From positions 276,393 through 340,392 of the IMG/VR virus record IMGVR_UViG_3300012931_000759: a stretch of 64,000 bases of DNA, one strand, 5' to 3'. How positions within the stretch are numbered: position 1 is the first letter of the stretch; the number at the start of each line of letters is the position of its first letter. Shown here piece after piece: positions 23,952 to 43,793 of the stretch. This DNA comes from a virus. A program made the translations under genes and the position numbers. The notes below the pieces were generated by a model. That model did not search any database. It was given only the letters and a program-made list of their open reading frames with translations, and was not told the origin of the DNA.

Positions 23952-24003
23952 AGAAATATCCGCGTGCGCGAGCACTGTCAAGCGGAAAATGGAGAATACC
24001 AAG

Positions 24004-25398
24004 ATGACCGAGGAAAAAACGAATCACGTCGTTGTGGAGGAAAGCACACGACCCGGCGCCCAGGCCGATGATGAATTGGAGCGCCACCTTGCGGAGCCCC
24101 CGCTGGATCCGGCAGTCCTGGAGCGTCTTCGCGCCAAGCAAAACACAGCAAAGGAGGCTACTGTACCGGCACCTGTGGTGCCGACGAAAACGGACCGTAG
24201 CCTGAACTTTGGAGTCGTCGGCCTAGGACAGGCCGGCTCCAGGATTGCTGAGGCTTTCCATGATCTCGGATACGATGCCTGCGTTATCAACACAGCAACG
24301 CAGGACCTGGAATTCATCGGTATGCCCGAGAACAGGAAACTATTTCTGCCCTTCGCTCTTGGAGGTGCGGGTAAGGAACTCGACAACGGGCGGCAGGCCG
24401 TCGAGCAGAATGCCGAGGCTATCATGACCAAACTACACGCGATGTTTGGTGACAAGAATCAGATGATGCTGCTTGCCGTCAGTGGCGGCGGCGGCACTGG
24501 GAGCGGCGGTGCTGAGGCCATCATTGGGCTCATGAGTACGCTTGGTAAACCAGTTGGTGTGATCTACGTTCTACCCATGGACACCGAAGATTCACTAACA
24601 AAGCATAATGCCGTCACGACATTGGGTAGGCTGGCCAAAATGACTAGCGCCGACACAATCTCTACTTTGATCGTGGTCGACAATGCGAAGATCGAACTAC
24701 TGTACCCAGGATTGAGCAAGGCGGCCTTCTGGCCAGCAGCTAATCGGGCGATCGTTGAGCCACTTCATCTGTTCAACAGTCTGTCGGCTATGGCTACGCC
24801 GTACGATAGTCTAGATTCGATGGACTTCGGACGTATCTTCACGGCTGGCGACTGTCTGATCTACGGGATGATGGAGGTTCCAAACTACAGGGAGACAACC
24901 GCCATCGCCGAGGCTGTCATGAGCCAACTTGAAGGAAGTCTCTTGGCGGGGGATTTCAATTTGAAAGAGGCTAGATTCGGCGGACTTCTTGTAGTAGGAA
25001 GCCCGCAGTCAATGGCAAGTTTGCCAGCGGAAAACATCCATTACGCGGCCCATATGGTGAGTGAGGCCTGCGATTATGCGCAACTGACTCGTGGAGTGTA
25101 TGAAATCCCAGACATTGGGGATGATGTTGTGCGCGTCTACACAATGTTTAGTGGTCTCGGACTTCCGGCGGCCAGGATCGACATCCTCAAGCAGGAGGCT
25201 GAGGACCAAATGCGGCAGATCCACGAGAAGGAGAAGACACGCGCCTCGCGGATGGAGGTTGATTACGGGGCTGGGGGCGGAACTGTTGCGAAGGCTCAGG
25301 AAATCCGCCGACTTATACAGAAGGACAAGAGTAGTTTCGGCAAGCTGACATCGAACGCCAACAGGCGTCCCGACATCATTGATCGCCGGAGGCGCTAA
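24004..25398 (+). CDS. Tubulin/FtsZ-like GTPase
   Basis: The 464-residue protein has a charged N-terminal tail of about 60 residues, then FGVVGLGQAGSRIAEAF (loop T1), ALGGAGKELDNGR (T3-like), and SGGGGTGSGG near residue 163, the tubulin/FtsZ signature that binds GTP phosphates. DSLDSMDFGRIFTAGD near residue 265 looks like the T7 synergy loop with the catalytic Asp. A basic tail (RRPDIIDRRRR) ends it. Such phage or plasmid proteins polymerise into filaments that position DNA or particles. ATG 24004 has GGAG 9 bases upstream; ATG 23989 is an alternative. It is not close to FtsZ by motif spacing, so TubZ, PhuZ or CetZ-like membership is open. Confidence 0.88.
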   Translation: MTEEKTNHVVVEESTRPGAQADDELERHLAEPPLDPAVLERLRAKQNTAKEATVPAPVVPTKTDRSLNFGVVGLGQAGSRIAEAFHDLGYDACVINTATQDLEFIGMPENRKLFLPFALGGAGKELDNGRQAVEQNAEAIMTKLHAMFGDKNQMMLLAVSGGGGTGSGGAEAIIGLMSTLGKPVGVIYVLPMDTEDSLTKHNAVTTLGRLAKMTSADTISTLIVVDNAKIELLYPGLSKAAFWPAANRAIVEPLHLFNSLSAMATPYDSLDSMDFGRIFTAGDCLIYGMMEVPNYRETTAIAEAVMSQLEGSLLAGDFNLKEARFGGLLVVGSPQSMASLPAENIHYAAHMVSEACDYAQLTRGVYEIPDIGDDVVRVYTMFSGLGLPAARIDILKQEAEDQMRQIHEKEKTRASRMEVDYGAGGGTVAKAQEIRRLIQKDKSSFGKLTSNANRRPDIIDRRRR

Positions 25399-28136: not shown

Positions 28137-28813
28137 TTTCACAACGCAAGACTGAGGCCGAGAAGGCCCGCATAGTGGCGAACTGCGGCAGGTGTGGAGG
28201 GGTCGGCTGCGCGTACTGTCAGAAGTACTGTTCCTTCATAGACCGTATGTCCGAGGCGGGGATCCCGGTTGATTACTGGTTCCGCGACATGGAAAAATGG
28301 TACGGCGACCCCGATTTCGCAGAAGAATTCAAGGTTTCCTACCTATCCAGGATAGAGGCGGCCTACGCAGATGGTCGGGTTCTCTGCCTCCTTGGGCATA
28401 GGGGCGTCGGCAAGACTATGGCGGCGTGCTCGGCACTAAAGAAGGCTATCCTCTCCGGGTATTCGGCGCATTACACGTCGCTTGTCGACGCCGTTGATTT
28501 CCTCGTCTCCGGAGACGCCCACGACTACCGGCAGCTCCTGAAGTCTGTAGATTTCCTGGTGATGGACGAGGTTGACCAGCGGTTCTTTGACCACGTCAAC
28601 AGCCGCGCGCTGTATGGGAACCAGTTCGAGTATATTCTTAGGACCAGGACGCAGAACCGGCTTCCGATGATTATGTGCTCGAACTCTGAACGGGTTGAGG
28701 ACATCTTTTTCAACGACCAGGCGCAGGCGTCTTTTGTGTCCCTTGGGACACAGTTCTTCGCAACAATGCGCGTGGGTGGCCGGGATGCCAGACCCAAGGA
28801 GGGTGGGCAATGA
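28133..28813 (+). CDS. DnaC/IstB-like AAA+ helicase loader
   Basis: The 226-residue protein has an N-terminal zinc knuckle (CGRCGGVGCAYC near residue 18), then the P-loop LLGHRGVGKTMA near 86-97, Walker B FLVMDEVDQRF near 142 and a sensor-like MIMCSNSE near 180. This is the layout of DnaC or gp59-type loaders that place DnaB on DNA. The replicative helicase gene follows with an ATGA overlap, which supports the role. The zinc element is an addition seen in some phage and IstB-like loaders. Confidence 0.88.
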   Translation: MISQRKTEAEKARIVANCGRCGGVGCAYCQKYCSFIDRMSEAGIPVDYWFRDMEKWYGDPDFAEEFKVSYLSRIEAAYADGRVLCLLGHRGVGKTMAACSALKKAILSGYSAHYTSLVDAVDFLVSGDAHDYRQLLKSVDFLVMDEVDQRFFDHVNSRALYGNQFEYILRTRTQNRLPMIMCSNSERVEDIFFNDQAQASFVSLGTQFFATMRVGGRDARPKEGGQ

Positions 28814-30216
28814 GCGAGATTTCGCTGGACCTGAGGATGCTGGCGTACGCTCTTTCTGACAAAAGGATCCTCCTTGCCATGGCGACCACTGTGCGTGGAG
28901 AGCACTTCAATCCGGAATTTCGGGTACTGTGGGAGTTGGTCTCCAGGTGCTTTGCGAAGTACAAGGACATCCCCACGGCCAACGTACTTGAACATGTTGC
29001 CGACCTGGCGTGGGAGCAGCTAGTCGAGACATACCGCCGGGTTCTTGAGGCTATTCCATTGATCGACAGGCGGGAATATCCGGTCGACCTGGAGAAACTC
29101 AAGGCAAGGGCAAACGACAATATTCTCCGTAGGATGGGACAGCACGTCTACCAGAAGAACTGGAATGGACACGGGTTCGATAACCTACATGAGGCGAACA
29201 AGGCGTTACGTGAAACGGTCTCTAAGCTGGATCAGCTGTACAAGACGGAATCCTACAAGGAAGGCTCTTTGGCAGGGACTGCCTCCGAGGCCTGGGGTAA
29301 GTACCAGCGCACGAAACGTGATCCGGCCTCTGCCGCCGGGATTCATCTTGGATTTGCCGAGTTCGATCGCATCACTAACGGGATCAGGGAAGGCGAGCTT
29401 CTGCTCATTGGCGGCGAGTCCGGCACGGGCAAGTCGGCGCTCTCGATGAACATGGCTGTCAACGCGTGGCTTGGGGCCAACAAGGTGCCGACCGATCCGG
29501 ACGCGGATCCTAAAAACTTCGCTCCCGGCCGTGCGGTGGTGTACTTCTCGATCGAGATGCCCTACGAAGCCCTTGAGAGGCGGCTCCACGCGTGCGTTGC
29601 AGGGGTGCCACTTTACGGCATACGTGACGGCACGCTAGATGTAGCAGAGGAGGCCCGCTACCTGGCCGCCCTTCGGTTTATACAAAAGTACCCGCACCAG
29701 TTCCACATCATCGACATACCGCGCGGCGCGACCATGCGGTACATCGAGACCAAGTACCTGGAGCTATGCCAAGACAATACCGATGATCCCATCCATCTGT
29801 CTGTGGTCGATTACCTGAACCTGATGTCCATGGACGGCGAGGATGAGGGCGGCCCTGATTGGCTAAAAATCGGGAAACTGGGCGAGCAAGCGCATGAGTT
29901 CACCCGCGTCCATGGTACGCCCATGATCTCTCCGGTTCAACTAAACCGCCCGCCCAAGGAGGAGGCAGCAAGGGCCGCGAGGCCGGATCAGGATCGGATA
30001 GCGCGCAGCCTGATGCTGGTCCAGAACGCTAATATGGTTCTAAACATCGAGAAGCGCAAGGATGAGCATTTGACAAAAGACATGAGAGTTCACATAGTGA
30101 AGATGCGCGACGGCGAACAGGGCCTTTTCACCCTACAGAAGAGGCTGGATGCCATGCGGCTGTTCGATGACCCCACGGACTGGACACCCGGATCGTATGA
30201 GGCTGGAAACAATTAG
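28810..30216 (+). CDS. dnaB: Replicative DNA helicase, DnaB-like (SF4)
   Basis: The 468-residue protein has an N-terminal helical domain (about 1-150) and a RecA-like core: Walker A GGESGTGKSALSMNM near 200, VVYFSIEMPYEALERRL (motif H2), HLSVVDYLNLM (Walker B, near 339) and PVQLNRPPKEE. These are diagnostic for DnaB hexameric helicases that unwind the replication fork. It is encoded next to its loader. No primase domain is fused and no separate primase is in the window. Length is normal for DnaB. Confidence 0.93.
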   Translation: MSEISLDLRMLAYALSDKRILLAMATTVRGEHFNPEFRVLWELVSRCFAKYKDIPTANVLEHVADLAWEQLVETYRRVLEAIPLIDRREYPVDLEKLKARANDNILRRMGQHVYQKNWNGHGFDNLHEANKALRETVSKLDQLYKTESYKEGSLAGTASEAWGKYQRTKRDPASAAGIHLGFAEFDRITNGIREGELLLIGGESGTGKSALSMNMAVNAWLGANKVPTDPDADPKNFAPGRAVVYFSIEMPYEALERRLHACVAGVPLYGIRDGTLDVAEEARYLAALRFIQKYPHQFHIIDIPRGATMRYIETKYLELCQDNTDDPIHLSVVDYLNLMSMDGEDEGGPDWLKIGKLGEQAHEFTRVHGTPMISPVQLNRPPKEEAARAARPDQDRIARSLMLVQNANMVLNIEKRKDEHLTKDMRVHIVKMRDGEQGLFTLQKRLDAMRLFDDPTDWTPGSYEAGNN

Positions 30217-30231: not shown

Positions 30232-30519
30232 ATGCCGATATATGACTACATTTGCGAGGAATGCGGCCACGTCTTCGAGGAGTTTGCGCGTATCACGGAT
30301 CCTCCGATTAATAAATGTCCGGCCTGCGGCCTAACGGGACGCGTATGTCGCCTAATCTCGAGCGGCACAGTTGGCACAGTAGAGATGAACGGTCGGGAGT
30401 ACTTCAATCGTGTCTTAGAACCGGAGGCCAAGCGGATCGCCGAGAAGATTAAGCACGGGGATGATGCCGCAATCGCTGATGTTTTTGGCGAGGGCCCTCC
30501 TGCAAAAAAAGTCGGTTGA
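30232..30519 (+). CDS. FmdB-type zinc-ribbon protein
   Basis: The 95-residue protein begins MPIYDYICEECGHVFEEF and has CPACG 20 residues after CEECG; this is the FmdB zinc-ribbon family, small presumed regulatory proteins. The tail is acidic and basic without pattern (EAKRIAEKIKHGDDAAI). The start has GGGGAAAAAGGCC upstream. It overlaps the -35 region of the promoter for the PrkA block. Family function is poorly known; some are called formamidase regulators, but that is not supported here. Confidence 0.8.
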   Translation: MPIYDYICEECGHVFEEFARITDPPINKCPACGLTGRVCRLISSGTVGTVEMNGREYFNRVLEPEAKRIAEKIKHGDDAAIADVFGEGPPAKKVG

Positions 30520-30544
30520 ATTCCGGCTGCCCTGTGCGTATAAT
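30516..30544 (+). promoter_or_regulatory. Sigma70-like promoter for the PrkA-YeaH-SpoVR block
   Basis: TTGAAT (30516-30521), a 17-base spacer, then consensus TATAAT (30539-30544). It is the best housekeeping-type promoter in the window and would start transcription about 60 bases before PrkA. The transcript leader then carries a hairpin at 30577-30591. It implies that host RNA polymerase reads this block independently of the upstream genes. Confidence 0.65.
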
Positions 30545-30576
30545 CTCTTTAAACAGGGGAAGGATTGCGTCCCGCT

Positions 30577-30591
30577 CCGGCCAAAGGCCGG
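30577..30591 (+). other. Leader hairpin before prkA
   Basis: CCGGCC-AAA-GGCCGG is a perfect GC stem with a 3-base loop, 24 bases before the prkA ATG and just before the AGGATGGAG ribosome site. A short run of A follows, not T, so it is not a terminator. It could stabilise the mRNA or tune translation; that is inferred. Confidence 0.45.
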
Positions 30592-30614
30592 GAAAAACCG
30601 CGAAAGGATGGAGC

Positions 30615-33600
30615 ATGGAAGTGATCAACACCGGCAAAAAGGGCAAGAAGACCAAGGATCAGGAAGAGACGGCGGAGAACGGGGCGCTCGACCTTGTTGC
30701 CCTCATTGAGCAATGTGCGGCCGAAGAGGATCTTGAGCCATGGGAGGGCACGCTTCGCGATTATCTCCCGATGGTACAGGATGATTGTACACTGGCGGAC
30801 ACGGCCCACGCAAGGCTGTGGCGCATGATTGAGACAGTCGGCATCAAGTTCGACGACAAGGATGAGCGGAAAGAGCATCCCGAGTACAGCTTTTTCACCA
30901 ACGAGTTGTTCGGCATCAATGACACGCTGGCCAGCGTCATGGAATATCTCAGGGCTGCCGCAGCTGGATCCGACGTCGCCCGGCGAATCCTGCTCCTATA
31001 CGGGCCCACGAGTTCCGGTAAATCGCAGTTCGCAATCCTCCTTAAGGAGGGTCTGGAGAAGTTCTCGCGCACCAAGGCCGGGCGCATGTTTGCCCTCAAA
31101 GATTGCCCGATGCACGAGAACCCCTTGAACGCGGTGCCCAAGGCTGCGAGGGAGCAATTGAAGGCTAAGTATGGCCTCAATATTGAAGGTGACTTGTGTC
31201 CGCGCTGTGCCTACAGGCTCAAGACCGAGTTCAACGGCGACTTCATGGCTCTGCCGGTCGAGCGCGTGCTCCTGTCCGAGGCCAACCGAGTGGGTATCGG
31301 CACGTTCCAGCCGGCCGATCCCAAGTCGCAGAACCAGTCCGAGCTGACGGGCTCCGTCAACTTCGCCAAGCTGGCCGAGCTGGGCTCGGAGTCGCACCCG
31401 CTGGCTTTCGACTTCAACGGCGAGCTGAACAAGGCCAACCGCGGCATGATGGAGTTCATCGAGCTCCTGAAGGTGGACCGCAAGTTCAGGCACATCCTCC
31501 TGACGCTGGCGCAGGAGAAGCGCATCAAGGCACAGAATTTTCCGCTCATTTTCGCGGACCTAGTAGTAATCAGCCATAGCGTGTCTGGCGATATGCCTGT
31601 TCCCTATAGAGAGAATGGGTTGGTTCGATTTACCACAATGAGGCAACTGTGTGATGCCAACAACACCAACATCGAGGTTCTTGCTGCCGATGCCAATGGC
31701 AAGCCCGCATGGACGAAAGTGAAAGGATTCTATCGTCACCAGTTCTCTGGCAAAATGGTGAAGACCGTACAGGTTGATGGTGTTGTCAACACTACTTGGC
31801 ATCATTCTTTGATTGGCAAGGCGGACAATGCGCCTTTTCTGCCCGAAACGCTTCAAGATGTCCTGGCATTCAGGAATGTTCCTGAACAAACCGAACTTGG
31901 GACATTCGATGTTCCGGTTCCCGATTCGTTGTCCTATTTACCCGTTAATACCCCAGGTATCTTGTCCACGGATTGCTGTGTTCCCGAGCAATCCTTTGCT
32001 CGTGTTAAACCAACTGGCAACAAGAAAAGTGATGGAGAATACGGCAAATATTGGATCAAAACTCGCTACGATTCTTGTTCCGAGGAAGCGAAAGACATTG
32101 TTGCTCTTCTGTGTTGGTATGCTACAGAGGGTCATGTCTCGAATGAGCATGCGATCATTTCCCAAGCCAACCTGGAAACTCTATTTTCCCTGAAGAAGAG
32201 AGCGGAGAGGGTTTCTTCAGCCATAGGGTCTGTGTTTGATCGATCGGATGAGGAGGATCACACTAGCCGCCTTCACCTTTCGGCAAGGGTGTGGCGGGAA
32301 ATTCTTGAGCACAATTGCGGAAGATATAGCGAAAACAAGCGTTTGCCAGATTTTGTGTTCAATTTGCCTCGTGAGTTGCGTGAATTCGCTTTACGAGAAC
32401 TCATAAAGGGAGATGGTCAGACTATGCCATCGTTCGCATCCTGCGAGGAATATGCCAAAAAGTACTTTGCCTTCAAAACGACAAGCATTATTCTGGCAGC
32501 CCAATTCTGCTATTTGGCAAGTTCGCTTGGGTACGATTTTGGCGTACATCATGGATATACGAAAAAGGGAAAGGATTTCTTTGGCATCAATTATCGGGAA
32601 CGAACGAAGCCCATACTAAGGAAAAACAGGATCGAGACCGTTGAGGTGTCCGACAGCGAAGTATTCGATATCGAATGCGTGGACAATCATTCTTTTGTGG
32701 CTGGCGTTGGCAACCTTGTTTGCCACAATACGAATGAGACCGAGTACCTCAAGTTCCTCGCCCAGAAGGAGGAGGAAGCGCTCCACGACCGCCTGTGGGT
32801 CATCAAGTTCCCCTACAACCTGCGCCTCGAGGACGAGATCAAGATCTACGAGAAGCTCATTTCCAGGGCGGCCGGGTTCCAAGGTATCCACATCGCGCCA
32901 CACACCCTGCGCGTGGCGGCGATGTTCGCCATCCTGAGCAGGCTGGAGGAGTCCAAGGACCAGAAGTTCACCCTGCTGACCAAGATGCGCCTGTACAACG
33001 GCGAGAAGGTCGACGGGGCCGGCAAGGAGGACGAGAAGAGGCTGCGCGAGGCTGCCGAGCGCGAGGGCATGGACGGCATCAGCCCCCGCTACATCGTGAA
33101 CCGCATCTCGGCCTGCTTCACCAAGCACGGTCGGACCTACATCACCCCGATGGACATCGTCCGCAGCATCAAGGAGGGGTTCTCCACCAACGCCAAGCTG
33201 TCGAAAGAGGACATCTCGCGGTTCGAGAACATTATCACGACGGTGATGGAGGAGTACAACAAGATCGCAACAAACGAGGTTCAGAAGGCTTTCTTCCTGA
33301 ATTTCGAGCACGAGATCAAGGATCTGCTCAATAACTACATCGACAACGTTGGTGCCTATCTGGACGATGACAAGATCCAAAACCACTGGGGCGAAATGGA
33401 GGAGCCGAACCACCGCCTCATGAGGAGTGTCGAGGAGAAAATTGGCATCACCGACGGCGGCAAGGATGCTTTCCGCCAAGAGGTGTACCGCAAGATGATC
33501 AAGAGCAAGAGCGAGACGGGCGACTACGACTACCAGAACCATCCGCGCCTGAAGGAGGCGCTACAGAAGCAGTTGTTCGAGGAGCGCAGCGACATCATCA

Positions 33601-33752
33601 GGCTGACGGTGTCCGTGCGGAATCCTGATGCCGATGCGCTCAAGCGGCTGAACGAGGTCATCAAGACCTTGAGCGAAAAATGCGGTTACACTCCGGAGAG
33701 CGCCAATGATTTGCTGCGTTATGTCAGCAGCATATTGGCGAAAAACAGCTAG
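30615..33752 (+). CDS. prkA: PrkA (YeaG) serine protein kinase family protein with an intein
   Basis: Without its intein the protein has 661 residues, close to E. coli PrkA (about 640). The AAA+ part has LLYGPTSSGKSQFAI near residue 130 (P-loop), a Cys pair CPRCAYRLKTEF, SELTGSVNFAKLAELGS and GMMEFIELLKVDRKF, all PrkA landmarks. The extein junction VVISH/TNETEYLKF is the conserved HTNE site. The C-terminal half (LRVAAMFAILSRLEESK, SPRYIVNRISAC) is the PrkA-specific domain. PrkA is described as a Ser kinase, and more recently as a protease, acting in sporulation and starvation. ATG 30615 follows AGGATGGAG; longer TTG starts are rejected. YeaH and SpoVR follow. Confidence 0.92.
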   Translation: MEVINTGKKGKKTKDQEETAENGALDLVALIEQCAAEEDLEPWEGTLRDYLPMVQDDCTLADTAHARLWRMIETVGIKFDDKDERKEHPEYSFFTNELFGINDTLASVMEYLRAAAAGSDVARRILLLYGPTSSGKSQFAILLKEGLEKFSRTKAGRMFALKDCPMHENPLNAVPKAAREQLKAKYGLNIEGDLCPRCAYRLKTEFNGDFMALPVERVLLSEANRVGIGTFQPADPKSQNQSELTGSVNFAKLAELGSESHPLAFDFNGELNKANRGMMEFIELLKVDRKFRHILLTLAQEKRIKAQNFPLIFADLVVISHSVSGDMPVPYRENGLVRFTTMRQLCDANNTNIEVLAADANGKPAWTKVKGFYRHQFSGKMVKTVQVDGVVNTTWHHSLIGKADNAPFLPETLQDVLAFRNVPEQTELGTFDVPVPDSLSYLPVNTPGILSTDCCVPEQSFARVKPTGNKKSDGEYGKYWIKTRYDSCSEEAKDIVALLCWYATEGHVSNEHAIISQANLETLFSLKKRAERVSSAIGSVFDRSDEEDHTSRLHLSARVWREILEHNCGRYSENKRLPDFVFNLPRELREFALRELIKGDGQTMPSFASCEEYAKKYFAFKTTSIILAAQFCYLASSLGYDFGVHHGYTKKGKDFFGINYRERTKPILRKNRIETVEVSDSEVFDIECVDNHSFVAGVGNLVCHNTNETEYLKFLAQKEEEALHDRLWVIKFPYNLRLEDEIKIYEKLISRAAGFQGIHIAPHTLRVAAMFAILSRLEESKDQKFTLLTKMRLYNGEKVDGAGKEDEKRLREAAEREGMDGISPRYIVNRISACFTKHGRTYITPMDIVRSIKEGFSTNAKLSKEDISRFENIITTVMEEYNKIATNEVQKAFFLNFEHEIKDLLNNYIDNVGAYLDDDKIQNHWGEMEEPNHRLMRSVEEKIGITDGGKDAFRQEVYRKMIKSKSETGDYDYQNHPRLKEALQKQLFEERSDIIRLTVSVRNPDADALKRLNEVIKTLSEKCGYTPESANDLLRYVSSILAKNS
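31578..32729 (+). other. Intein in PrkA (Ser1, LAGLIDADG endonuclease), 384 aa
   Basis: It begins at Ser in SVSGDMPVPYRENG, the usual block A, and ends HN (SFVAGVGNLVCHN) before Thr, so splicing residues S1, penultimate H, terminal N and +1 T are all present. The middle has LLCWYATEGHVS and ALRELIKGDGQTMPS, degenerate LAGLIDADG helices. It lies in the most conserved part of the AAA+ core. The DNA is AT-richer than its flanks, which suggests recent arrival. Confidence 0.88.
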
Positions 33753-34334
33753 ATGGCCAATGAGATTTGTGCCAGATGCGGCAGACCGAGAAAAGTGGCC
33801 GAAAGAACGCCAGATGGTCCAATTTGCCACAACTGCTACAAAAAAGAGCACATTGAGCCATGCCGGTTCTGTGGGAAACAGAAAGCAGTTGCTGCCCGAG
33901 ATGATAACGGCGCGGCCATCTGCGACAACTGTAACAAAGAACACAACAAATGTTCGTGTTACGTGTGCCATGAAGTTAGACAAGTTCGTGCGCGTGCGGA
34001 AAACGGACAGCCACTGTGTCTTGCTTGTCATCGTTTGACTAATCTTGGACAGTTTTTCGCATCGTACAAGAGAGGAGCCAGCCTGCGCGGTCATATATTC
34101 GAACTCACGTTGGATGAGTTTGAACAATTGGTGCGCAGGCCATGCTGGTACTGTGGACGCTACAACCGGGGAGAAATTTTCAGCGGCGTGGACAGAATCG
34201 ACAGTTCATGCGGCTATGTTCGAACCAATGTGCTACCGTGCTGCGGCGAGTGTAACCTGATGAAAGGTTCCTTGTCCAAGGACGCGTTCCTTGCTAGCAT
34301 TGTGCGCATAGCCAGACATTTGGAAAACAAATGA
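33753..34334 (+). CDS. HNH homing endonuclease with zinc ribbons
   Basis: The 193-residue protein starts at the base after the prkA stop. It has several Cys pairs in the first half (CARCGRPRK, CHNCYKKEH, CRFCGK, CDNCNKEH, CYVCHEVR, CLACHR), a zinc-ribbon array that probably helps bind DNA, then an HNH core: CWYCGRYNRGEIFSGVDRID and LPCCGECNLMKGSLS. It interrupts the PrkA-YeaH pair, whose genes are normally neighbours, and overlaps the start of the DUF444 gene by four bases. The gene is likely mobile. Confidence 0.9.
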   Translation: MANEICARCGRPRKVAERTPDGPICHNCYKKEHIEPCRFCGKQKAVAARDDNGAAICDNCNKEHNKCSCYVCHEVRQVRARAENGQPLCLACHRLTNLGQFFASYKRGASLRGHIFELTLDEFEQLVRRPCWYCGRYNRGEIFSGVDRIDSSCGYVRTNVLPCCGECNLMKGSLSKDAFLASIVRIARHLENK

Positions 34335-35500
34335 ACGACTCCTACAAGGACATCTGGGAACTCCGACAGCCCGGTCGACGCGACTCAGAACGCCATAAGG
34401 TGCGTATCAGAAAGGCTATCAAGGAGAACCTACGGGAGCTGATCGCGGAGGAGAATATCATCTCCTCCGACGGCAAACGCAAGGTCAAGGTTCCGGTGCG
34501 CTACCTTGATATGTGGCGATTTAAATTCGGTCCTAATTCTAAGTCCAAGGATGTTGGTCATGGCGAAGGTGATCCTGGCGACATCATTGCCAAGGAAGGC
34601 AAGGGGAAAGGTAATAAGGCAGGTGACCAGCCGGGTGAGGAGTTGTACGACGAGGAGGTCGAACTAGCCGAAATCGTGGACATGATGCTGGAAGACCTCG
34701 GCCTCCCATGGTTAAAGCGGAAAGAGAATCAGGTCGAGATCGAGACAGAAGAGATGGTTTTCCACGACATCGCCGAGAAGGGTCTTCCCCCGAACGTCGA
34801 CCTGAAGCGGACACTCATCGAGAACCTGAAGCGGAACTCTATCGCCGGGAAGCCCTCGTTCGGCAAGATTGTGCCGGACGATCTGCGGTACAGGGTGTGG
34901 GAGAATGTGGTAGAGAAGCACTCTAACGCATCTGTAATCCTAATCATGGACCGCTCCGGGAGCATGACGGACGATAAAAAGTATATCGTGAAGTCTTTCT
35001 TCTTCTGGATGGTTAGTTTCCTGCGCATGAAATACGGGAATGTGGAGGTCGTCTTCATCGCGCACGACACCGAGGCCAGGGAGGTGGGGGAGGAGAACTT
35101 CTTTGCCATCTCTGATGGGGGAGGCACGCGCATCAGTTCCGGGCTGGAGCTGGCCAAGACGATCATCGAGACTAGGTTCCCCACAAACATCTGGAATAAC
35201 TACGTCTTCTCGTTCTCGGACGGCGAGAATTGGGATACGGACAACGAGCGCTGTATAGCCATGTTCAGAGAGTTACTTGGGATGTGCCAGGCGGTTGGAT
35301 ATGGGGAGGTGTCGTATACCGATCAGTTCTACAGCTGGTCCTCGTGGCGCGGCCACTGGTCGACCCTCCACGATGCCATTAAGGAGGCGGACGACCTAGT
35401 TGGGGAACCGAGATTCCTACAGGCGGCAATCGTGAAGCGCGAGGACCTATACGACTGCCTGCGTCAGTTTCTGGATGTCGACGGGAAGGAGAAGCCATGA
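34331..35500 (+). CDS. yeaH: DUF444 / YeaH-YhbH family protein with von Willebrand A domain
   Basis: The 389-residue protein has the conserved DUF444 N-terminus (RDSERHKVRIRKAIKENLRELIAEENIIS), a Gly-Lys-rich linker, and a vWA-type metal-binding site ILIMDRSGSMTDDKK near residue 207 (DxSxS MIDAS), then FSDGENWDTD near 297. YeaH partners PrkA/YeaG in E. coli stress physiology, with SpoVR/YcgB next to them, and this order (PrkA, YeaH, SpoVR) is kept here apart from the HNH gene. It overlaps the HNH gene and the SpoVR gene by four bases. Slightly shorter than E. coli YeaH (about 427). Confidence 0.93.
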   Translation: MNDSYKDIWELRQPGRRDSERHKVRIRKAIKENLRELIAEENIISSDGKRKVKVPVRYLDMWRFKFGPNSKSKDVGHGEGDPGDIIAKEGKGKGNKAGDQPGEELYDEEVELAEIVDMMLEDLGLPWLKRKENQVEIETEEMVFHDIAEKGLPPNVDLKRTLIENLKRNSIAGKPSFGKIVPDDLRYRVWENVVEKHSNASVILIMDRSGSMTDDKKYIVKSFFFWMVSFLRMKYGNVEVVFIAHDTEAREVGEENFFAISDGGGTRISSGLELAKTIIETRFPTNIWNNYVFSFSDGENWDTDNERCIAMFRELLGMCQAVGYGEVSYTDQFYSWSSWRGHWSTLHDAIKEADDLVGEPRFLQAAIVKREDLYDCLRQFLDVDGKEKP

Positions 35501-36966
35501 GGGACAGTCGCATCGTTGACTTGGAGCAGCTGGCGCGCAAGAACGGGCTCGATTTTTTCCCGGTGGTATTCGAGGTCGTAAGCGAGAATACGATGAACAA
35601 CGTGTGCGCCTACGGCCTGCCCACCAGGGCCAGGCACTGGAGTTACGGTCGTTCGTACGACCACCAGCGGATCTATGGGGAGATGGGGTTTTCGAAGGTG
35701 TTCGAGATGATCACCAACAACGATCCCTCGTACGCATTCGTCCTGGATAGCAACACGGAGGCCCAGAACCTCCTGATCGTGGCCCACTGTTTCGGGCACA
35801 GCGACTTCTTCAAAAACAATATAACATTCCAGGGCAGTGACCGCAACATGGCGCGGCATGCCGCGGAGCACGCCAACAGGATCGATGAGTACATCGAACA
35901 ATACGGCCTAGATGCGGTCGAACGCCTGATGGATATCGGTTTCAGCCTCGATTCCCATATCGATGTCCACAAGGGGCTGTATCGTAAAAAGTACCCAAGG
36001 AGGCACATCGAGGAGCGCCGGGTGAAAGCGAACGAGTTCGACGACCTGGATCCAGCCAAGGCTAGGCGGCCCTCCATGATCCGCGAGGTGGTAAACGCCA
36101 CCATGCCTCCTCACCCAGAGAGGGACTTGTTGTGGTTTTTCATCCAATATGCGCCATTGGAGGACTGGGAGCGCGACATTCTCGACATCGTGCGTGAGGA
36201 GTCGTTCTATTTCTATCCACAACGCCTAACCAAAATCATGAATGAAGGCTGGGCCGTTTACTGGCATGCTGAACTTTTACACCAATACAAGAATATCACG
36301 CCCGAGGAGATGATCGATTTTGCGCGTACCCACGAACGGGTTGTTCAGCCGGGAAACCCGTTCGACATTAATCCGTACTATCTCGGTTATAGAATCTACA
36401 AAGACATAGAGAAGCGCTGGGATAGGATGTATGCCGAGGGCGAATCGTCCATCACGGGCCGCCAGAAAATTTTCGAGGTTCGGCGTGACGAGGACGACGT
36501 GTCATTCCTGCGCAACTACCTGACGGCCGACTTGGTCCAAGAGCTGAAGCTATTCACCTTTGGGCGCGAGAACGAGGAGCCGGATCAGGACGAGGATGAG
36601 GAGGTCCTGTACGAGATCAAGAGCCGTATGCGCGAAGAAGTTGTCGAGGCCTTGGTGAAACCCCGGTACAATAACTGGGCACCCAAGATCGTGATCACGG
36701 ACGCAAGCTCCGAGAAGATCTGCCTGCGGCACGAAAGTGAGGAACTGGGCACGCTCAATTTCCGGTACGCCGAGCATATGCTTGAGTACGTTTGGGAGCT
36801 TTGGGCTGCGCCCGTGGAGTTGCGGACCAAGGACGACAATGGCAGGGAGGTTGTGCTCCTGTTCGACGAGGCTGGATTTTCGCAGCGAACACTTGAGGAG
36901 GAGTTTGACCTCGATGATGATGGAGACGAGGAAAAGGACGAGGGTCCGTTCAAGAAGACCCCTTAG
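35497..36966 (+). CDS. spoVR: SpoVR family protein (YcgB-like)
   Basis: The 489-residue protein has GLPTRARHWSYGRSYDHQRI near residue 40, LIVAHCFGHSDFFKNN near 92 and the NEGWAVYWHAELLHQYKN block near 248, which are SpoVR hallmarks, plus FFIQYAPLEDWERDILDIVR. The C-terminus is acidic. SpoVR is needed for spore cortex formation in Bacillus and its relatives are co-expressed with PrkA and YeaH; its biochemical activity is not known. Here it completes the triad and starts by ATGA overlap after YeaH. Length is close to E. coli YcgB (about 510). Confidence 0.95.
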   Translation: MRDSRIVDLEQLARKNGLDFFPVVFEVVSENTMNNVCAYGLPTRARHWSYGRSYDHQRIYGEMGFSKVFEMITNNDPSYAFVLDSNTEAQNLLIVAHCFGHSDFFKNNITFQGSDRNMARHAAEHANRIDEYIEQYGLDAVERLMDIGFSLDSHIDVHKGLYRKKYPRRHIEERRVKANEFDDLDPAKARRPSMIREVVNATMPPHPERDLLWFFIQYAPLEDWERDILDIVREESFYFYPQRLTKIMNEGWAVYWHAELLHQYKNITPEEMIDFARTHERVVQPGNPFDINPYYLGYRIYKDIEKRWDRMYAEGESSITGRQKIFEVRRDEDDVSFLRNYLTADLVQELKLFTFGRENEEPDQDEDEEVLYEIKSRMREEVVEALVKPRYNNWAPKIVITDASSEKICLRHESEELGTLNFRYAEHMLEYVWELWAAPVELRTKDDNGREVVLLFDEAGFSQRTLEEEFDLDDDGDEEKDEGPFKKTP

Positions 36967-36977
36967 CGGAGGAAAGT

Positions 36978-37538
36978 ATGGCAAGGGTTTGTATCACCGG
37001 GCACCGCCCGGATCCTTTTCTGGTGTCGCATTACCAACTTGAGGCTGTGGAACGTCTCGCTGGCAATGTTACCTGCGCGCTCAAGCGCGAGTACGGCGAC
37101 GAGCTGATGTTCAACTTAGGTGGAGCTGTGGGCGCTGACCAATGGATGGGCGCTGCCGCCATTGAACATGGCGTGAAGTACAGCCTATTCCTGCCGTTCT
37201 TGCCACAGATCCAGGCCCGTTACTGGGACGAGCAGCAGCGCGACGAACTTGACCGCCAGATGAAGGGCGCCGCTAAAATCGTGATCGTAGATCCATCGGG
37301 CCAATACGACGTTGCCAAATACTACGAGCGCGACCGCCTGATGGTGGACGAGGCCGATTTTGTCGTGGCGTTCTGGGTCGGCCGTCGACGCGGAGGCACC
37401 TTTGAGACGATGAAGTATGCTCTATCCAAGTCGAAATTTGTACTCAACGCCATGGATCACCTGCGTCCTGTGTTCAAGCAGGACTTGGAGAGCGGATGGA
37501 CTCCGCCACACTTGAGAGGGGAAACCGAAGATGAATAA
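36978..37538 (+). CDS. YpsA/DUF1273-like SLOG protein
   Basis: The 186-residue protein starts VCITGHRPD, the YpsA opening, and has NLGGAVGADQWMGAAAIEHG near residue 46, LFLPFLPQIQARYW near 70, and VVAFWVGRRRGGTFETMKYA near 129. These match the SLOG Rossmann group (DUF1273/YpsA, related to DprA and LOG), which binds nucleotides such as ADP-ribose derivatives. GGAGG precedes the ATG. Phage SLOG proteins may sense or degrade a nucleotide signal. The role here is unknown. It overlaps the sigma factor gene by 8 bases. Confidence 0.82.
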   Translation: MARVCITGHRPDPFLVSHYQLEAVERLAGNVTCALKREYGDELMFNLGGAVGADQWMGAAAIEHGVKYSLFLPFLPQIQARYWDEQQRDELDRQMKGAAKIVIVDPSGQYDVAKYYERDRLMVDEADFVVAFWVGRRRGGTFETMKYALSKSKFVLNAMDHLRPVFKQDLESGWTPPHLRGETEDE

Positions 37539-38175
37539 TGGGGTCAAGACCCGTCGCTACCTTGTGAACAACGAGGAAATCCTTGTGCTGATTGAATCCT
37601 GGCGGAATGCTAACCAGCACGAGAAAACCAAGCTTGCGAACCAGGTAGTTTCTCGTCTCGCCTTCCTTGTTCACTCCAAGATTAGGCTCCACAAGGGGTC
37701 CCCACTGTACGACGATCTCCTCCAGGAGGGGCGGCTAGGTATCATGAAGGCCCTTCAGGATTTCGAGCCTGAACGTGGCCGTAATTTTTTCATGTTCGCC
37801 ACTTGGCATATTCAAACTAGGGTGCGCCGACTACTTCTGCGCGAGGTGCGTCGTTGCGAGTCCCCGGCTGGAGATATGCTGCTGGTGGCCAAAAGTGTCT
37901 CCGAGACCCGCGAGCACCTCCTAGCGCAGGAGACCGGCACTGCCCTTGAGAGTCGGGAGAGCTGCGGTGCTATTATGAAAGTGCTGAGTTTCCTGTCGGA
38001 CAGCGACCGCAAAGTGCTAGTTATGCGTTTCGGCTTCGACGGCGAAGAGCCTCGTACATTCCAGCAAATCGGGAACGAACTTGGAATTTCCAAGCAGCGC
38101 GCACAGCAAATCGAAGCCGGTGTTTTGCGCCGTCTGCGCAGGAATAATGAGCTTATGGACCTAATTGGTGGGTAG
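37531..38175 (+). CDS. RNA polymerase sigma-70 family factor (phage-encoded)
   Basis: The 214-residue protein has region 2 (DDLLQEGRLGIMKALQDFEP, then FFMFATWHIQTRVRRLLL, the -10-reading helix) and region 4 (LSDSDRKVLVMRFGF, FQQIGNELGISKQRAQQIEA), the helix-turn-helix that reads -35. There is no region 1.1 and region 3 is short, so it is close to the sporulation/flagellar sigma size. It would redirect host RNA polymerase to phage promoters; candidate targets are motif copies A, B and C. It starts inside the YpsA-like gene end. Next is the RNR gene. Confidence 0.9.
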   Translation: MNNGVKTRRYLVNNEEILVLIESWRNANQHEKTKLANQVVSRLAFLVHSKIRLHKGSPLYDDLLQEGRLGIMKALQDFEPERGRNFFMFATWHIQTRVRRLLLREVRRCESPAGDMLLVAKSVSETREHLLAQETGTALESRESCGAIMKVLSFLSDSDRKVLVMRFGFDGEEPRTFQQIGNELGISKQRAQQIEAGVLRRLRRNNELMDLIGG

Positions 38176-38184
38176 GAGAGTGGT

Positions 38185-41100
38185 ATGCCGATGATCTACT
38201 TGGTGGATGACATCGAATCCACTATCAAGAGAATGTTATCTGACGAGGAGCTGAGGGGTCTTGGTCTCAACAAGATCAAAGTGCGCCGAACCCTATCCTC
38301 GTTTAGGGGTGACGAGATTGCCGCTTCCGTTTTTCTCAAGAAATACGCCCTGCGTGATGCTGATGACGAGGTAGCCGAGCTGACCTTGGAGGAGGCCAAG
38401 GATCGGTGGGCGGTTGCCATCGCCAAGGGGGAGGAGCTGTTCTCTGGCGAGCGCAAGGAGGCTCCGTACTTCCGTGAACTGTATGAGCATTTCCTACCGG
38501 CTGGCCGCCAGATGTTTGCTTTGGGTAACAGCCAGATGAGAAACGTAACGTTCACGAATTGTCTGTCTGGCAGCACATTTGTGCCAACGGACGCAGGTTT
38601 ACGGAAATTGGATGCGCTGTCCAAGACAAAGGTGCGCCTGAACGGCAAAAGCTATATGGCCAAGGTTTGGCGCACGGGATCCAAGCTCGTTAGACGGTTG
38701 GATACTGTTGAAGGGTATTTTGCCCTGCCGACTGGCGACCATCGGTTCCAATTAGTCGATGGATCTTGGCGTTCTGTGGACAAACTCCAGCCCGGTGACC
38801 GCATTGTGTTGGGACATGATAGTAGGCCTTTTGGTCCTTCTAATGAACATGAAGAATTGAGAGGTTTTGCGGCTGGCCTATTTGTTGGAGTTGGTACATT
38901 TGCCGGTGAAGGTTTCCAGGTCGCAAATGTGCGTCTGTTCGGGAAGAATTCAAGATTCTTGGTGGAAAAGATTGCCAGTTTGTATGGTGGCAGTCCTCTC
39001 TCTCATGCTGAACATATATCCTATAACAGTACAGCATGGGCGCGCGATATGTTCGAAAGTACAGGCATCCAGCACGGCAATAAAACGATCACTGATCGTC
39101 TCATGTCCCAATCATGGTCGTTCCTGCGTGGTTTTTTGCGAGGACTGTTTGATGCCAATGGATGTGTTATTGATAGCCAAAAAAACCACCAGCGGCAGAT
39201 CGTGCTGGTCCAATCGGATCGCGACATGCTATGTCGGGTACAGATCCTCTTGTTGGCGTTTGGTATTCGTTCGGTCATATACAAGGGAGAATTTCCCAAG
39301 GGTGTTTTTCAGTGTCGACAAGGATGGTCTTTACACATTAGTAGACGTTCGTTCGAGACATTTGCCGAGTTCATAGGATTTGCGCATCCAAGCAAGGCGG
39401 CAAAGATGCGCACTGCGTTGAACCGTGCGCCTTTTAAGCCGGACATTTGGTATGCTCGTGTCAAAAGCGTAACGAATTTTCAACGCATGGATGTGTACGA
39501 TATGAGTGTTTTTGGTATACATGCGTTTCCGGCAAACGGTTTGGTTGCCCATAACTGCTATGTTACCCAGATCGAGGATGACAGTATTGAGGGCATCTAT
39601 GGCGCGGCCCAGAAACTGGCCAAAACATACTCGTACGGCGGCGGCATCGGACTGTGCGTGGGTGAATTGCGCCCTGCGGGCGCGCGTGTGTCGAACAGTG
39701 CGCGCCAGTCGACCGGCTCCGTCAGCTTCATGGAGCTGTTCTCGCTGACGACGGGCCTGATTGGCCAAGCGGGGCGCCGTGGCGCCCTAATGATTACCAT
39801 GCCAGTATCCCATCCAGACGCAGAAGAGTTCATCGAGGTCAAACACGGGAACACTGACAAGGTTAAGTACGCGAACATTAGTCTGAAACTGACCGACGAG
39901 TTCATGCAGGCCGTCGTCGAGGACAGGATGTTCCGGCAGACCTACACCACGAAGCATGAGACGGTGTGGCGCGAAGTGCGCGCCCGTGACCTATGGCAGA
40001 AAATCATCCAGAGCGCCCGTGACTCGGCAGAGCCCGGCCTGATGTTCTGGGATCGCATGGTGACCATGTCGCCCTCGGAAATTTACCCGAGATTACAAGT
40101 CCATAGTACTAATCCTTGTGTGACGGGAGATACTTTAGTTGCGACGCCTTCTGGCTGGAAAAGGGCCGATTTATTCCAAAAAGGCGATCATATTTCTACT
40201 GTGTGTGGTTTCGGTTTGGTCGAAAGAGTAGAAACACATCATAATGTACCGGTCTACAAAGTAGAATTTTCAGACGGAACGATATTGAAAGTAACTGCTG
40301 CCCATCAGTTCCATGTGGCAAAAAAGGATACAAAAACAGAAAAATATCCAAGGAAATATACTCCTACCAGGCTAGATCAAATGGAAGTTGGGGATTTTGT
40401 AAGGGCTTCTGGTTTCGAATGTCCAGATCTGCCAGAAGGCCAATTAAAAGATTTTTGTGACGCTTTTTTGGCTGGTGTGTTGTTGGGAGACGGATGTTAC
40501 ACTCCAAAAATGACAGCTAGTAAAGTGGTAAAGATTGCATCTGATATCAGAGACAATAAATGGAACGAGCTACTAAAGAGCAAATTTGGAGAACGTGGTG
40601 TGATATTATCTTGCTACGGGGCGACAGATGGGTCATGTTCTTGTAGTCTTACCTCGCAGAATGGCGACTTGGTGAGCTTGGTGGACGAATTTGGTCTGGT
40701 TCACACATATTCTTATCATAAGCGTATTCCTGATCATTTGTGTTTTGGAAACAAAGAACAAATGCGAGGTGTTCTAGATGGTCTTTTCTCCACTGATGGA
40801 AATGTGAATCTTAGCGGAGACTCTCCACAGATAAGGTTGAAATCCACATCACGGTTTATGTTGGCCCAAGTTAAGAGAATGCTTCTGATGTTTGGCATAT
40901 TCTCGTCATTGGGGAATGTCGGTAAAACTTCAATAATACTTGGGCGAAAAGTAAAATCACGAGACCGATACGAATTGGTTGTGAGCGGGCAAAGTGTCGA
41001 TTTTTTCATCAGACGTATAGGGATCTCTCATCCAGCAAAGAAGGCGTTATGCCAAGATTTGCTTTTGAATTGGGCTTTGACTGGTAACACTTGGAGAGTA

Positions 41101-42591
41101 AAACTGAAATCGGTTGAGTTCATGGGATGCGAAACGGTCTATGATATCTATGAACCATCCACCGATACATGGATTACGGATGGAATTGTTTCGCGCGGTT
41201 GTGGAGAGCAGATCCTGGAGAAAGGCGGCGCCTGCGTGCTGGGCTCGCTGTTGCTCCACACCTTCGTGGTCGACCCGTTCACGCCACAGGCGCGATTTGA
41301 CTTCGACTGCTTCAAGCAGATGACCAGGCGAGCCGTCAGGCACCTGGATAACGTGGTCGAGCTGAACTTTGGTCGGCATGCCCTCGAAGAGCAGGAGGAG
41401 GCGGCCCAGCTCGGACGCCGAATTGGCCTTGGAGTGACTGGCCTCGCCGATACACTTGCGGCCCTTGGCATCAAGTACGACTCTGAAGAGGCACTTAAGG
41501 CGGTCGACCAGGTTATGTCGGCCAAAAAAGACGCCGAATACCGTGCTTCAATCGACCTGGCTATGGTACGCGGGCCTTTCAGGATGTTTGATCCCAAGGC
41601 ACACTATGAGCAGGGTTTCTGCGCCACGTTGCCGGAGGAGATCAAGGCGTTGGGACGCGAGCGTGGCCAGAGGAACGTTGCCATCTCGACCGTCGCTCCG
41701 GCCGGTAGTCTGAGTGTGATAGCCCAATGCTCAAGCGGTATCGAGCCCGTTTTCGCGCTTCGCTACAAACGATATGTCGAACTGGGCTCGGAACGAAAGG
41801 AGTTCTCCATCCGCCACCAAGGTTTGTCGCGCATGGCTGCAGTTCTGGGTAGCGAGACGGCACCGTGGTGCTGGGTCACGGCCCATAGTATCGACCACCG
41901 ATTCAGGGTGGCTATGCAGGGCGTCATCCAGAGGCATACTGATGCCTCGATCTCGAGTACCATCAACCTACCTAAGGATGCCATGGCCGAGACCGTCGGC
42001 GAAATCTACATGGACGCCTGGAAGGCGGGACTGAAGGGAATTACGGTGTACCGTGAGGGCGCGCGAGAGGGTATACTTGTAACAGAGGAGTTTGCCCGGC
42101 AGGCTGGATCCCCGATGGACACCATTATCTACGAGGCGAGAGCGGAGGCGGGGGACAAGTTCTATATTCCGATCTCCTACACTGGAGGTGATGTAAGGAA
42201 GCCTTACCAGGTGTTCCTGATCAACTACAAAACCTCTGAGAATGACCGGTTTGCCAAAATGGGCAACGATTTGGTGCGTATGCTGCGCGAGAAAGGCGTA
42301 GAGGACGCTGACCCGAAGCGTTTCCAGAAGTACCTGGATCGGAGCACGACACAGCTGGGGAAGATTACAAGATTCCTGTCCCTCTCCATGAAAACGGGCC
42401 ATTTTGAGGAGGCAGTCGAGATTCTTGGCGAGCATGGCACGGTTGGAACGCTAGCTGCCGAGCTATACAAGATTCTTCGCATAAGTCTCGCAAACGCGAA
42501 GGTTTTGTGCCCCAACTGCGGTAGCTCGAACGTCAGGATGGAGGAGGGATGTCGGCATTGCCTGGATTGTAGTTGGTCGGGTTGCGGATAG
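38185..42591 (+). CDS. nrdJ: Class II (adenosylcobalamin-dependent) ribonucleotide reductase with two inteins
   Basis: The precursor has 1,468 residues; removal of inteins of 332 and 361 residues leaves 775. Extein landmarks are GRQMFALGN, NVTFTN/CYVTQI, YGGGIGLCVGELRP, STNP/CGEQILEKGGACVLGS (the NPCGE Cys block), and a C-terminal Cys ribbon (CPNCG...CRHCLDCSWSGCG) as in NrdJ. NPCGEQ and the zinc tail favour class II, which uses cobalamin instead of a separate radical subunit, and no NrdB is nearby. It makes deoxynucleotides for phage DNA. AGGAGAG precedes the ATG. The second intein lacks its normal end residues, so splicing is in doubt. Confidence 0.88.
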   Translation: MPMIYLVDDIESTIKRMLSDEELRGLGLNKIKVRRTLSSFRGDEIAASVFLKKYALRDADDEVAELTLEEAKDRWAVAIAKGEELFSGERKEAPYFRELYEHFLPAGRQMFALGNSQMRNVTFTNCLSGSTFVPTDAGLRKLDALSKTKVRLNGKSYMAKVWRTGSKLVRRLDTVEGYFALPTGDHRFQLVDGSWRSVDKLQPGDRIVLGHDSRPFGPSNEHEELRGFAAGLFVGVGTFAGEGFQVANVRLFGKNSRFLVEKIASLYGGSPLSHAEHISYNSTAWARDMFESTGIQHGNKTITDRLMSQSWSFLRGFLRGLFDANGCVIDSQKNHQRQIVLVQSDRDMLCRVQILLLAFGIRSVIYKGEFPKGVFQCRQGWSLHISRRSFETFAEFIGFAHPSKAAKMRTALNRAPFKPDIWYARVKSVTNFQRMDVYDMSVFGIHAFPANGLVAHNCYVTQIEDDSIEGIYGAAQKLAKTYSYGGGIGLCVGELRPAGARVSNSARQSTGSVSFMELFSLTTGLIGQAGRRGALMITMPVSHPDAEEFIEVKHGNTDKVKYANISLKLTDEFMQAVVEDRMFRQTYTTKHETVWREVRARDLWQKIIQSARDSAEPGLMFWDRMVTMSPSEIYPRLQVHSTNPCVTGDTLVATPSGWKRADLFQKGDHISTVCGFGLVERVETHHNVPVYKVEFSDGTILKVTAAHQFHVAKKDTKTEKYPRKYTPTRLDQMEVGDFVRASGFECPDLPEGQLKDFCDAFLAGVLLGDGCYTPKMTASKVVKIASDIRDNKWNELLKSKFGERGVILSCYGATDGSCSCSLTSQNGDLVSLVDEFGLVHTYSYHKRIPDHLCFGNKEQMRGVLDGLFSTDGNVNLSGDSPQIRLKSTSRFMLAQVKRMLLMFGIFSSLGNVGKTSIILGRKVKSRDRYELVVSGQSVDFFIRRIGISHPAKKALCQDLLLNWALTGNTWRVKLKSVEFMGCETVYDIYEPSTDTWITDGIVSRGCGEQILEKGGACVLGSLLLHTFVVDPFTPQARFDFDCFKQMTRRAVRHLDNVVELNFGRHALEEQEEAAQLGRRIGLGVTGLADTLAALGIKYDSEEALKAVDQVMSAKKDAEYRASIDLAMVRGPFRMFDPKAHYEQGFCATLPEEIKALGRERGQRNVAISTVAPAGSLSVIAQCSSGIEPVFALRYKRYVELGSERKEFSIRHQGLSRMAAVLGSETAPWCWVTAHSIDHRFRVAMQGVIQRHTDASISSTINLPKDAMAETVGEIYMDAWKAGLKGITVYREGAREGILVTEEFARQAGSPMDTIIYEARAEAGDKFYIPISYTGGDVRKPYQVFLINYKTSENDRFAKMGNDLVRMLREKGVEDADPKRFQKYLDRSTTQLGKITRFLSLSMKTGHFEEAVEILGEHGTVGTLAAELYKILRISLANAKVLCPNCGSSNVRMEEGCRHCLDCSWSGCG
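38560..39555 (+). other. Intein 1 in RNR (Cys1, LAGLIDADG), 332 aa
   Basis: It starts at Cys in CLSGSTFVPTDAG after FTN and ends FPANGLVAHN before Cys of CYVTQI. C1, penultimate H, terminal N and +1 C are all present, so splicing is expected. The endonuclease helices are seen as AAGLFVGVGTFAGE and LRGLFDANGCVI. It is inserted in a conserved active-site block. Confidence 0.9.
40117..41199 (+). other. Intein 2 in RNR with non-canonical C-terminus (RG instead of HN), 361 aa
   Basis: It starts at Cys in CVTGDTLVATPSGW after STNP and stops at IVSRG before the extein CGEQ. Block A, VYKVEFSDGTILKVTAAHQF (block B with H) and LAGLIDADG helices (FLAGVLLGDGCY, LDGLFSTDGNVN) are intact, but the last residues read Arg-Gly where His-Asn is expected. 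The codons are TCG CGC GGT before TGT. It is markedly AT-rich. Asn cyclisation is not possible as read, so it may be inactive, splice by another route or cleave. Confidence 0.85.
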
Positions 42592-42870: not shown

Positions 42871-43239
42871 ATGACCACCATCCTGGCGGATGTCGGCGAC
42901 GAGCGGCAGGCCATCGACGAGGAGCGGCAGGCCTGGTTGCGGCGCGTGCTGGTTGCCCTCGGAGCCGACGAGGCGACCATTTCCGAGAACACGCTGGAGG
43001 CCAAGCGCCACGTCTCCAGCCTTGGCCTGGATGTAGAGGGGCATCCTGACGGATCCATCGATATTGCTCGCCTGGAGATCTCAGTTATTGCCAGCGAGGA
43101 CAAAGAGGTTCCGATCGAGACGGGACGCCAGCTGGTGGCCCAATGGCTGCCGCCGAAGCTGCTGCGCGTCAAGGACAGGCCGAGGGATTATTACCGGATC
43201 ACACTGTGTGAATGGGCTCTGCCTTTCCAGATGAAATAG
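42871..43239 (+). CDS. Hypothetical protein (122 aa)
   Basis: The 122-residue product has an acidic N-terminus (ILADVGDERQAIDEERQAW), a central helix (LGADEATISENTLEAKRHV) and ends with a strand-rich WLPPKLLRVKDRPRDYYRIT segment. ATG 42871 has GGAG 10 bases upstream. It sits in a run of three short unknown genes between RNR and PhoH that look translationally linked. No domain is recognised. Confidence 0.65.
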   Translation: MTTILADVGDERQAIDEERQAWLRRVLVALGADEATISENTLEAKRHVSSLGLDVEGHPDGSIDIARLEISVIASEDKEVPIETGRQLVAQWLPPKLLRVKDRPRDYYRITLCEWALPFQMK

Positions 43240-43249
43240 GAGGAGAAAG

Positions 43250-43708: not shown

Positions 43709-43793
43709 TCGGCAAAACCTACCAATATCGAAGCATTACATTGAAAGCAACCGCACCAGCGCTCGGCATCGGCCGAAGGAGGGTTTCGCCACC

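Follow-up and report, generated by a model that had tools for sequence, protein, structure and literature searches.

The virus record IMGVR_UViG_3300012931_000759 comprises 340,392 bp, and its final 64 kb (positions 276393-340392), referred to here as the window, contain a block of genes related to the bacterial PrkA, YeaH and SpoVR families. Positions given below are those of the window unless another contig is named. Between 30,516 and 36,966 we found intact genes for PrkA, YeaH/DUF444 and SpoVR plus an HNH gene, in the order PrkA, HNH, YeaH, SpoVR and all on the + strand. HNH starts on the base after the PrkA stop, and there is a 4-nt overlap at both the HNH-YeaH and the YeaH-SpoVR junction. 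A first-pass annotation made from the letters alone had proposed a full triad with intact landmark motifs, carried by a phage. All three points held: the Pfam matches are all far over their cut-offs, and GPTSSGKS, DRSGSM and NEGWAVYWHAE are all found. The phage setting is genuine as well. The record encodes a terminase, other phage-type genes lie in the window (DnaB and DnaC-like ATPases, a sigma factor, ribonucleotide reductase, PhoH and a PhuZ-like tubulin), and the block DnaC-DnaB-PrkA-YeaH-SpoVR recurs in three related contigs of common gene order: L167 (134 kb), L309 (316 kb) and L310 (335 kb).

The AAA+ protein PrkA is encoded at 30615..33752 (+) and is split by an intein into exteins 30615-31577 and 32730-33752. 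Its likeliest start is the ATG at 30615, behind AAAGGATGGAG, rather than the TTG at 30516. The AAA domain (E=4e-101, 339 bits) and the C-terminal domain (E=6e-68, 230 bits; cut-offs 25, Pfam PF08298/PF06798) together with the retained Walker A Lys-Ser place it in the PrkA family. It does not belong to the MoxR-type AAA+ proteins, as its sole Pfam AAA match is AAA_PrkA. Walker A Lys and the GxSPR-type Arg are invariant across all aligned PrkAs having residues at these positions. A loss of Walker A in marine PrkAs, suggested by a strict P-loop regular expression, was ruled out by alignment: the motif is intact. The position of the "kinase" lysine, K426 of E. coli YeaG, varies: 20 of 21 bacterial rows and 11 of 37 phage rows have N or D there, and the window protein has N. 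For B. anthracis PrkA, which has been placed in AAA+ clade III, kinase and protease activity were reported to be negligible (PMC13001217). Solved structures exist for a PrkA relative (9xip, 9xiq, 9xir).

YeaH/YhbH (34331..35500, +; Pfam, alignment and model) matches DUF444 with E=2.5e-91 (Pfam PF04285) and carries the metal ion-dependent adhesion site (MIDAS) pattern DxSxS-T-D in its VWA domain. The MIDAS residues D207, S209, S211, T266 and D297 are invariant in 37 sequences. TIGR02877 gives 399 bits, under the equivalog cut-off of 468. The structural model has a VWA fold, with Rea1/MDN1 and NorD among its matches; matches to pentatricopeptide repeat proteins in the PDB were judged low-complexity artefacts.

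The third protein, SpoVR (35497..36966, +; E=6e-111, Pfam PF04293), has a candidate metal site consisting of H97-x3-H101 with E250 of the NEGWA motif. Besides the SpoVR domain it contains the family's H, H, NEG and N-x-Y-x-x-G residues, and H97, H101, E250 and Y294 are invariant in the alignment. A confident model (pLDDT 89, pTM 0.85) places H97, H101 and E250 on two helices. By alignment, the NEGWA region corresponds to the part of M1 peptidases that holds the third ligand: in hhalign NEGWAVY was paired with LNEGFAS, the alignment reaching across the Y-x-K-G motif, at a score of 35.3 vs 13-19 for 11 other families. Seven shuffles outscored this alignment, all of them end artefacts of 4-8 columns. 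A relationship to DUF885 was dropped, the hhalign score of 25.8 not exceeding the best non-artefact shuffle (26.6). We infer from these sequence features that SpoVR is a putative metal-binding, zincin-like protein with H97, H101 and E250 as candidate ligands. It does not qualify as a gluzincin-like metallopeptidase, since HxxxH has no second-position Glu and Foldseek against the PDB gave no match with E below 0.1; the similarity is at motif level only. Against BFVD, Foldseek returned one significant match, a 617-residue viral protein.

PrkA is interrupted by a 384-aa intein with homing-endonuclease similarity (31578..32729, +), located within the invariant H-x-N-x-x-E motif (VVISH/TNETEY, the slash marking the insertion site). 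Its borders read VVISH/SVSGD...LVCHN/TNETEY, and TIGR01443 (intein_Cterm) matches over the cut-off. The ends thus follow the intein pattern S...HN/T in the window, while C...HN/S is found in L167, L309 and L311. The HNH gene (33753..34334, +) is free-standing, endonuclease VII-like and inserted between PrkA and YeaH. Intein and HNH gene had been taken for invaders of the triad; neither is present in sister L167, which supports a recent arrival. Altogether the triads of this lineage hold six inteins at four sites, all within conserved motifs: apart from the window site these are GDSK/SQSQSEL in PrkA of L309, AAHCSAH/SDFFKNN and LNEGWA/SFWHAE in SpoVR of L309, NEGWA/SYWHAE in SpoVR of L167 and NEGFA/SFFHAE in SpoVR of L310/L311. 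The SpoVR inteins break precisely the HxxxH and NEGWA motifs. As inteins tend to occupy conserved catalytic motifs, both are independently marked as functional. The earlier suggestion that the triad has long been in phage circulation fits with these six inteins and with its retention in three related phages. In L310 two related DUF7487 genes, possibly mobile elements, lie on either side of PrkA (L310:11175-12815 and L310:15436-17424), which is free of inteins in this phage, and one more open reading frame (ORF) precedes YeaH.

The triad had also been credited with its own promoter and a leader hairpin. A sigma-70-like promoter, TTGAAT-17-TATAAT, is indeed present at 30516..30544 (+), ending 70 bp upstream of the PrkA start in one of 12 intergenic gaps longer than 40 bp. 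Matches at 10 of 12 promoter positions are common, with 8 on the window's + strand, and a perfect TATAAT occurs only in this one. Sister L167 has the same layout, with TTGAAT-17-TTTAAT 125 bp ahead of the PrkA start. In L309 and L310 the gap between the upstream gene and PrkA is too short for such a promoter, which is thus confined to the two closest relatives, the window and L167. The leader part of the claim did not hold: the inverted repeat CCGGCC-AAA-GGCCGG at 30577..30591 (+) showed no folding stability beyond that of shuffled sequences (z=-0.32). In L167 a terminator-like hairpin with a T run (z about -2.3), possibly an attenuator, lies downstream of the promoter and ahead of the PrkA start at L167:6090-6150.

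PrkA proteins from the window, L167, L309 and L310 form a single clade with a Shimodaira-Hasegawa-like approximate likelihood ratio test (SH-aLRT) support of 99. Between the window and L167 the triad proteins show 66-67% amino acid identity at a nonsynonymous divergence (dN) of about 0.26, with synonymous sites saturated. Judged from the sequences, the triad is under strong purifying selection. It belongs to the long-retained core of this virus lineage, and of many other large phages as well, and hence probably serves the virus and is no chance stowaway.

Next, we assessed the distribution of the three families in a collection of 50,697 phage records. SpoVR was matched in 15 of them, namely 11 Thermus phage records and four uncultured phages of ~600 kb. 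PrkA and YeaH match the same 15 records, plus Enterobacter phage LAU1 (both) and Bacillus phage CM1 (YeaH only). A triad is present in at least three of the four ~600-kb phages; in LR756502 the genes are separated, with SpoVR near 520 kb but YeaH and PrkA at around 274-277 kb. A scan of IMG/VR with window-specific peptides gave 168 relatives, of which the best 80 were retained. Seeds from the YpsA-like protein and YeaH yielded no IMG/VR relatives, reflecting the limit of exact-peptide seeding. Among these best 80 of 168, the window and the first phage loci, the order YeaH-SpoVR-PrkA occurs at 74 loci and PrkA-YeaH-SpoVR at 7. Dozens of the triads are located on large marine T4-like contigs, and most of the long ones encode a terminase and a T4-type gp23 capsid protein. 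Where phage contigs were inspected together with the flanking genes, SpoVR was nearly always accompanied by YeaH and PrkA.

The three protein trees are in broad agreement, each showing the same phage groups: the window with L167; the Thermus phages; marine T4-like phages with L018; LR745206 with E. coli; and L007 with L009 near Myxococcota/Planctomycetota, together with L015 and LR756511. The expectation of congruent trees was broadly borne out, the expectation of phage-only trees was not, as phage sequences stand at several places among bacterial ones. The bacterial neighbour of the window group varies by tree, and its deep placement is uncertain because of long branches. A minimum of three to five changes between phage and bacterial labels is forced, so that the module entered phages repeatedly, apparently as a unit; for the sequences sampled here this excludes an origin in phages alone. 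L005 and L012 were rejected as triad phages: their SpoVR is short by about 47 N-terminal residues, runs to the end of the contig, groups with Paenibacillaceae and is not accompanied by YeaH or PrkA. L005:9992-11242 and L012:9983-11284 probably mark prophage junctions at about codon 47 of the host gene spoVR in Paenibacillus-like bacteria; prophage insertion in host spoVR is known from Bacillus (PMC6957869).

The genomic neighbourhood of the triad includes structural and chaperonin genes. Terminase and T4 portal genes are found within a few kb of it in L007 and L009, and in Lalka8 it is flanked by portal/minor head on one side and TerL on the other. PrkA is followed in 50 of 61 marine loci by a gene for a GroEL-like protein that matches the intermediate and apical regions of GroEL (profile E down to 2.6e-37 vs PDB chains); the GDGTTT-type ATP-binding motif is missing from 54 of 55 copies. 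One example is L024:13487-14821, with homologues in 54 other loci, usually directly 3' of PrkA in marine T4-like phages. Full-length GroEL is encoded once each in the window's record (G000) and G066 and twice in G067. The copy of the window phage lies outside the window at 43186-44694 of G000 with GDGTTT intact; another was seen at L223:1100-2740. Overall, GroEL is carried by 10 of 25 other triad records vs 267 of 50,697 phage records, with lineages that are not independent.

Taking these observations together, we put it at about an even chance that the locus encodes an ATP-driven, three-part AAA+/VWA/SpoVR remodelling machine serving mainly phage-directed protein maturation. PrkA would form an AAA+ ring that hydrolyses ATP, and YeaH would connect this ring with a client through its VWA domain, in the manner of NorD and NorQ. 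The metal-binding, zincin-like SpoVR would be the effector or the first client. Made alongside replication proteins and next to a phage-encoded GroEL, the machine would act chiefly on proteins for phage production with no need to trigger sporulation or dormancy. Inteins and HNH gene would be selfish passengers, with intein splicing-out needed for function. The context of replication block, terminase/portal and GroEL-like gene is the reason why we favour a job tied to phage proteins. A more far-reaching version is doubtful: a widespread and hitherto unrecognised phage machine in which the AAA+/VWA motor and SpoVR, as a new zincin-like metalloprotein, would work with phage chaperonins, including the GroEL-like protein without the usual ATP-binding motif, to mature proteins of the virion, the replisome or a compartment in large phages.

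Several points weigh against the remodelling machine. The SpoVR-M1 hhalign probability is just 9.6% and the Glu of HExxH is missing, which is why we do not file SpoVR as a peptidase; its model has no significant PDB match in Foldseek (best E=0.16). No GroEL match was obtained in the four Thermus phages and two ~600-kb phages searched, all of them triad-bearing. Co-carriage of GroEL is confined to two lineages, and related T4-like contigs, which are fragments only, carry GroEL without a visible triad. B. subtilis SpoVR has been reported to bind RNA (PMC12456014), and the proposed machine leaves this unexplained. Finally, YeaG and YeaH of E. coli are linked to metabolic quiescence and have been described as a metabolic brake under nitrogen starvation (PMC10954441).

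The first-pass annotation had suggested that the triad could force a metabolic or dormancy-like state on the host. Its literature basis is the E. coli work just mentioned: the phage triad would act as YeaGH in N-starved cells, slowing metabolism or prolonging survival for a long infection. In addition, spoVR has been reported as a viral auxiliary metabolic gene (AMG) and the top-abundance one of the sporulation class in an oxygen-minimum-zone virome (PMC8940887), and the window phage also encodes PhoH. We consider such a role a serious rival, but on the unlikely side: in unrelated phages the triad sits in replication blocks and beside terminase/portal, it has the GroEL-like neighbour, and its proteins have diverged widely from their bacterial counterparts (29% between window SpoVR and E. 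coli YcgB by alignment) and are kept as a unit. Gene context hence favours a job on phage proteins. Thermus is not an endospore former, and the presence of the triad in Thermus phages makes a general sporulation role unlikely. Moreover, since SpoVR in the phage contigs inspected is nearly always found with YeaH and PrkA, viral spoVR matches should not be taken as sporulation AMGs.

Operons of an AAA+ protein plus partner are common among conflict systems, and the patchy, wide distribution with several phage entries would suit a module that remodels or cleaves foreign proteins and so blocks superinfecting phages or host defence. This is improbable, given that PADLOC-DB holds no match to YeaH or SpoVR, PrkA being matched through its intein alone by homing-endonuclease models, and that the triad occupies a core replication-block position rather than an accessory cargo spot. 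Passive host-derived cargo with no present function, for which the uptake of host genes by phages and the nearness of L169 to E. coli sequences might speak, is largely refuted by the intact landmark motifs, the strong purifying selection, the conservation of the triad in four related phages and the repeated inteins in conserved motifs.

Compared with known systems, the window triad shares all three families with bacterial prkA-yeaH/yhbH-spoVR (E. coli yeaG-yeaH plus ycgB), and the PrkA-YeaH-SpoVR order of the window occurs at 24 of 80 bacterial loci sampled. Identity of the window triad to E. coli is about 25-32% (BLAST), and the window adds the intein, the HNH gene, the replication-block setting and a separate phage clade. 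In the Thermus phages (phiYS40, TMA, YS40_Isch, phiLo, MN1 and Lalka8/27a/27b), where SpoVR, YeaH and PrkA were matched in 11 of 11 records, some genes are already annotated as SpoVR and serine kinase. They differ from the window in their YeaH-SpoVR-PrkA order (four loci read), their clade and the lack of inteins seen at these sites. Ralstonia jumbo phage RsoM2USA encodes SpoVR (ORF28) and PrkA (ORF30) two ORFs apart; this SpoVR is 56% identical to a Vibrio protein (PMC8504454) and for that reason probably a separate acquisition. For NorQ-NorD an AAA+/VWA mechanism has been worked out, in which the ATPase remodels a client with a VWA/MIDAS partner (PMC13036017). The likeness to this pair and other MoxR AAA+/VWA chaperones is one of working, not of membership: PrkA has been assigned to another AAA+ clade and the SpoVR partner is extra. 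In the open-access literature searched, we found no paper that describes the triad as a module recurring in phages. The phage version is compact with predicted functional residues intact, and genetic effects on it can be read quickly (plaques, burst size, virion proteome), so that the function of the whole module, SpoVR and YeaH included, becomes testable.

Upstream of the triad lie a DnaB-like helicase (28810..30216, +; Pfam), kept as neighbour across the lineage, and an FmdB-type zinc-ribbon protein (30232..30519, +). Downstream follow a YpsA/SLOG-like protein (36978..37538, +; Pfam match under cut-off) and a sigma-70 family factor (37531..38175, +); these last three neighbours are kept in L167 and L309. 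An adenosylcobalamin-dependent ribonucleotide reductase at 38185-42591 has two apparent inteins. The PhuZ/FtsZ-like tubulin (23908-25398) is also present in L309, L310 and 15 marine triad loci (e.g. L052:18105-19274). Glycosyltransferase and aminotransferase genes at 1812-4082 and 14229-15317 suggest a phage glycan or surface-modification cluster, and the product of 60565-62031 resembles thymidylate synthase along part of the protein.

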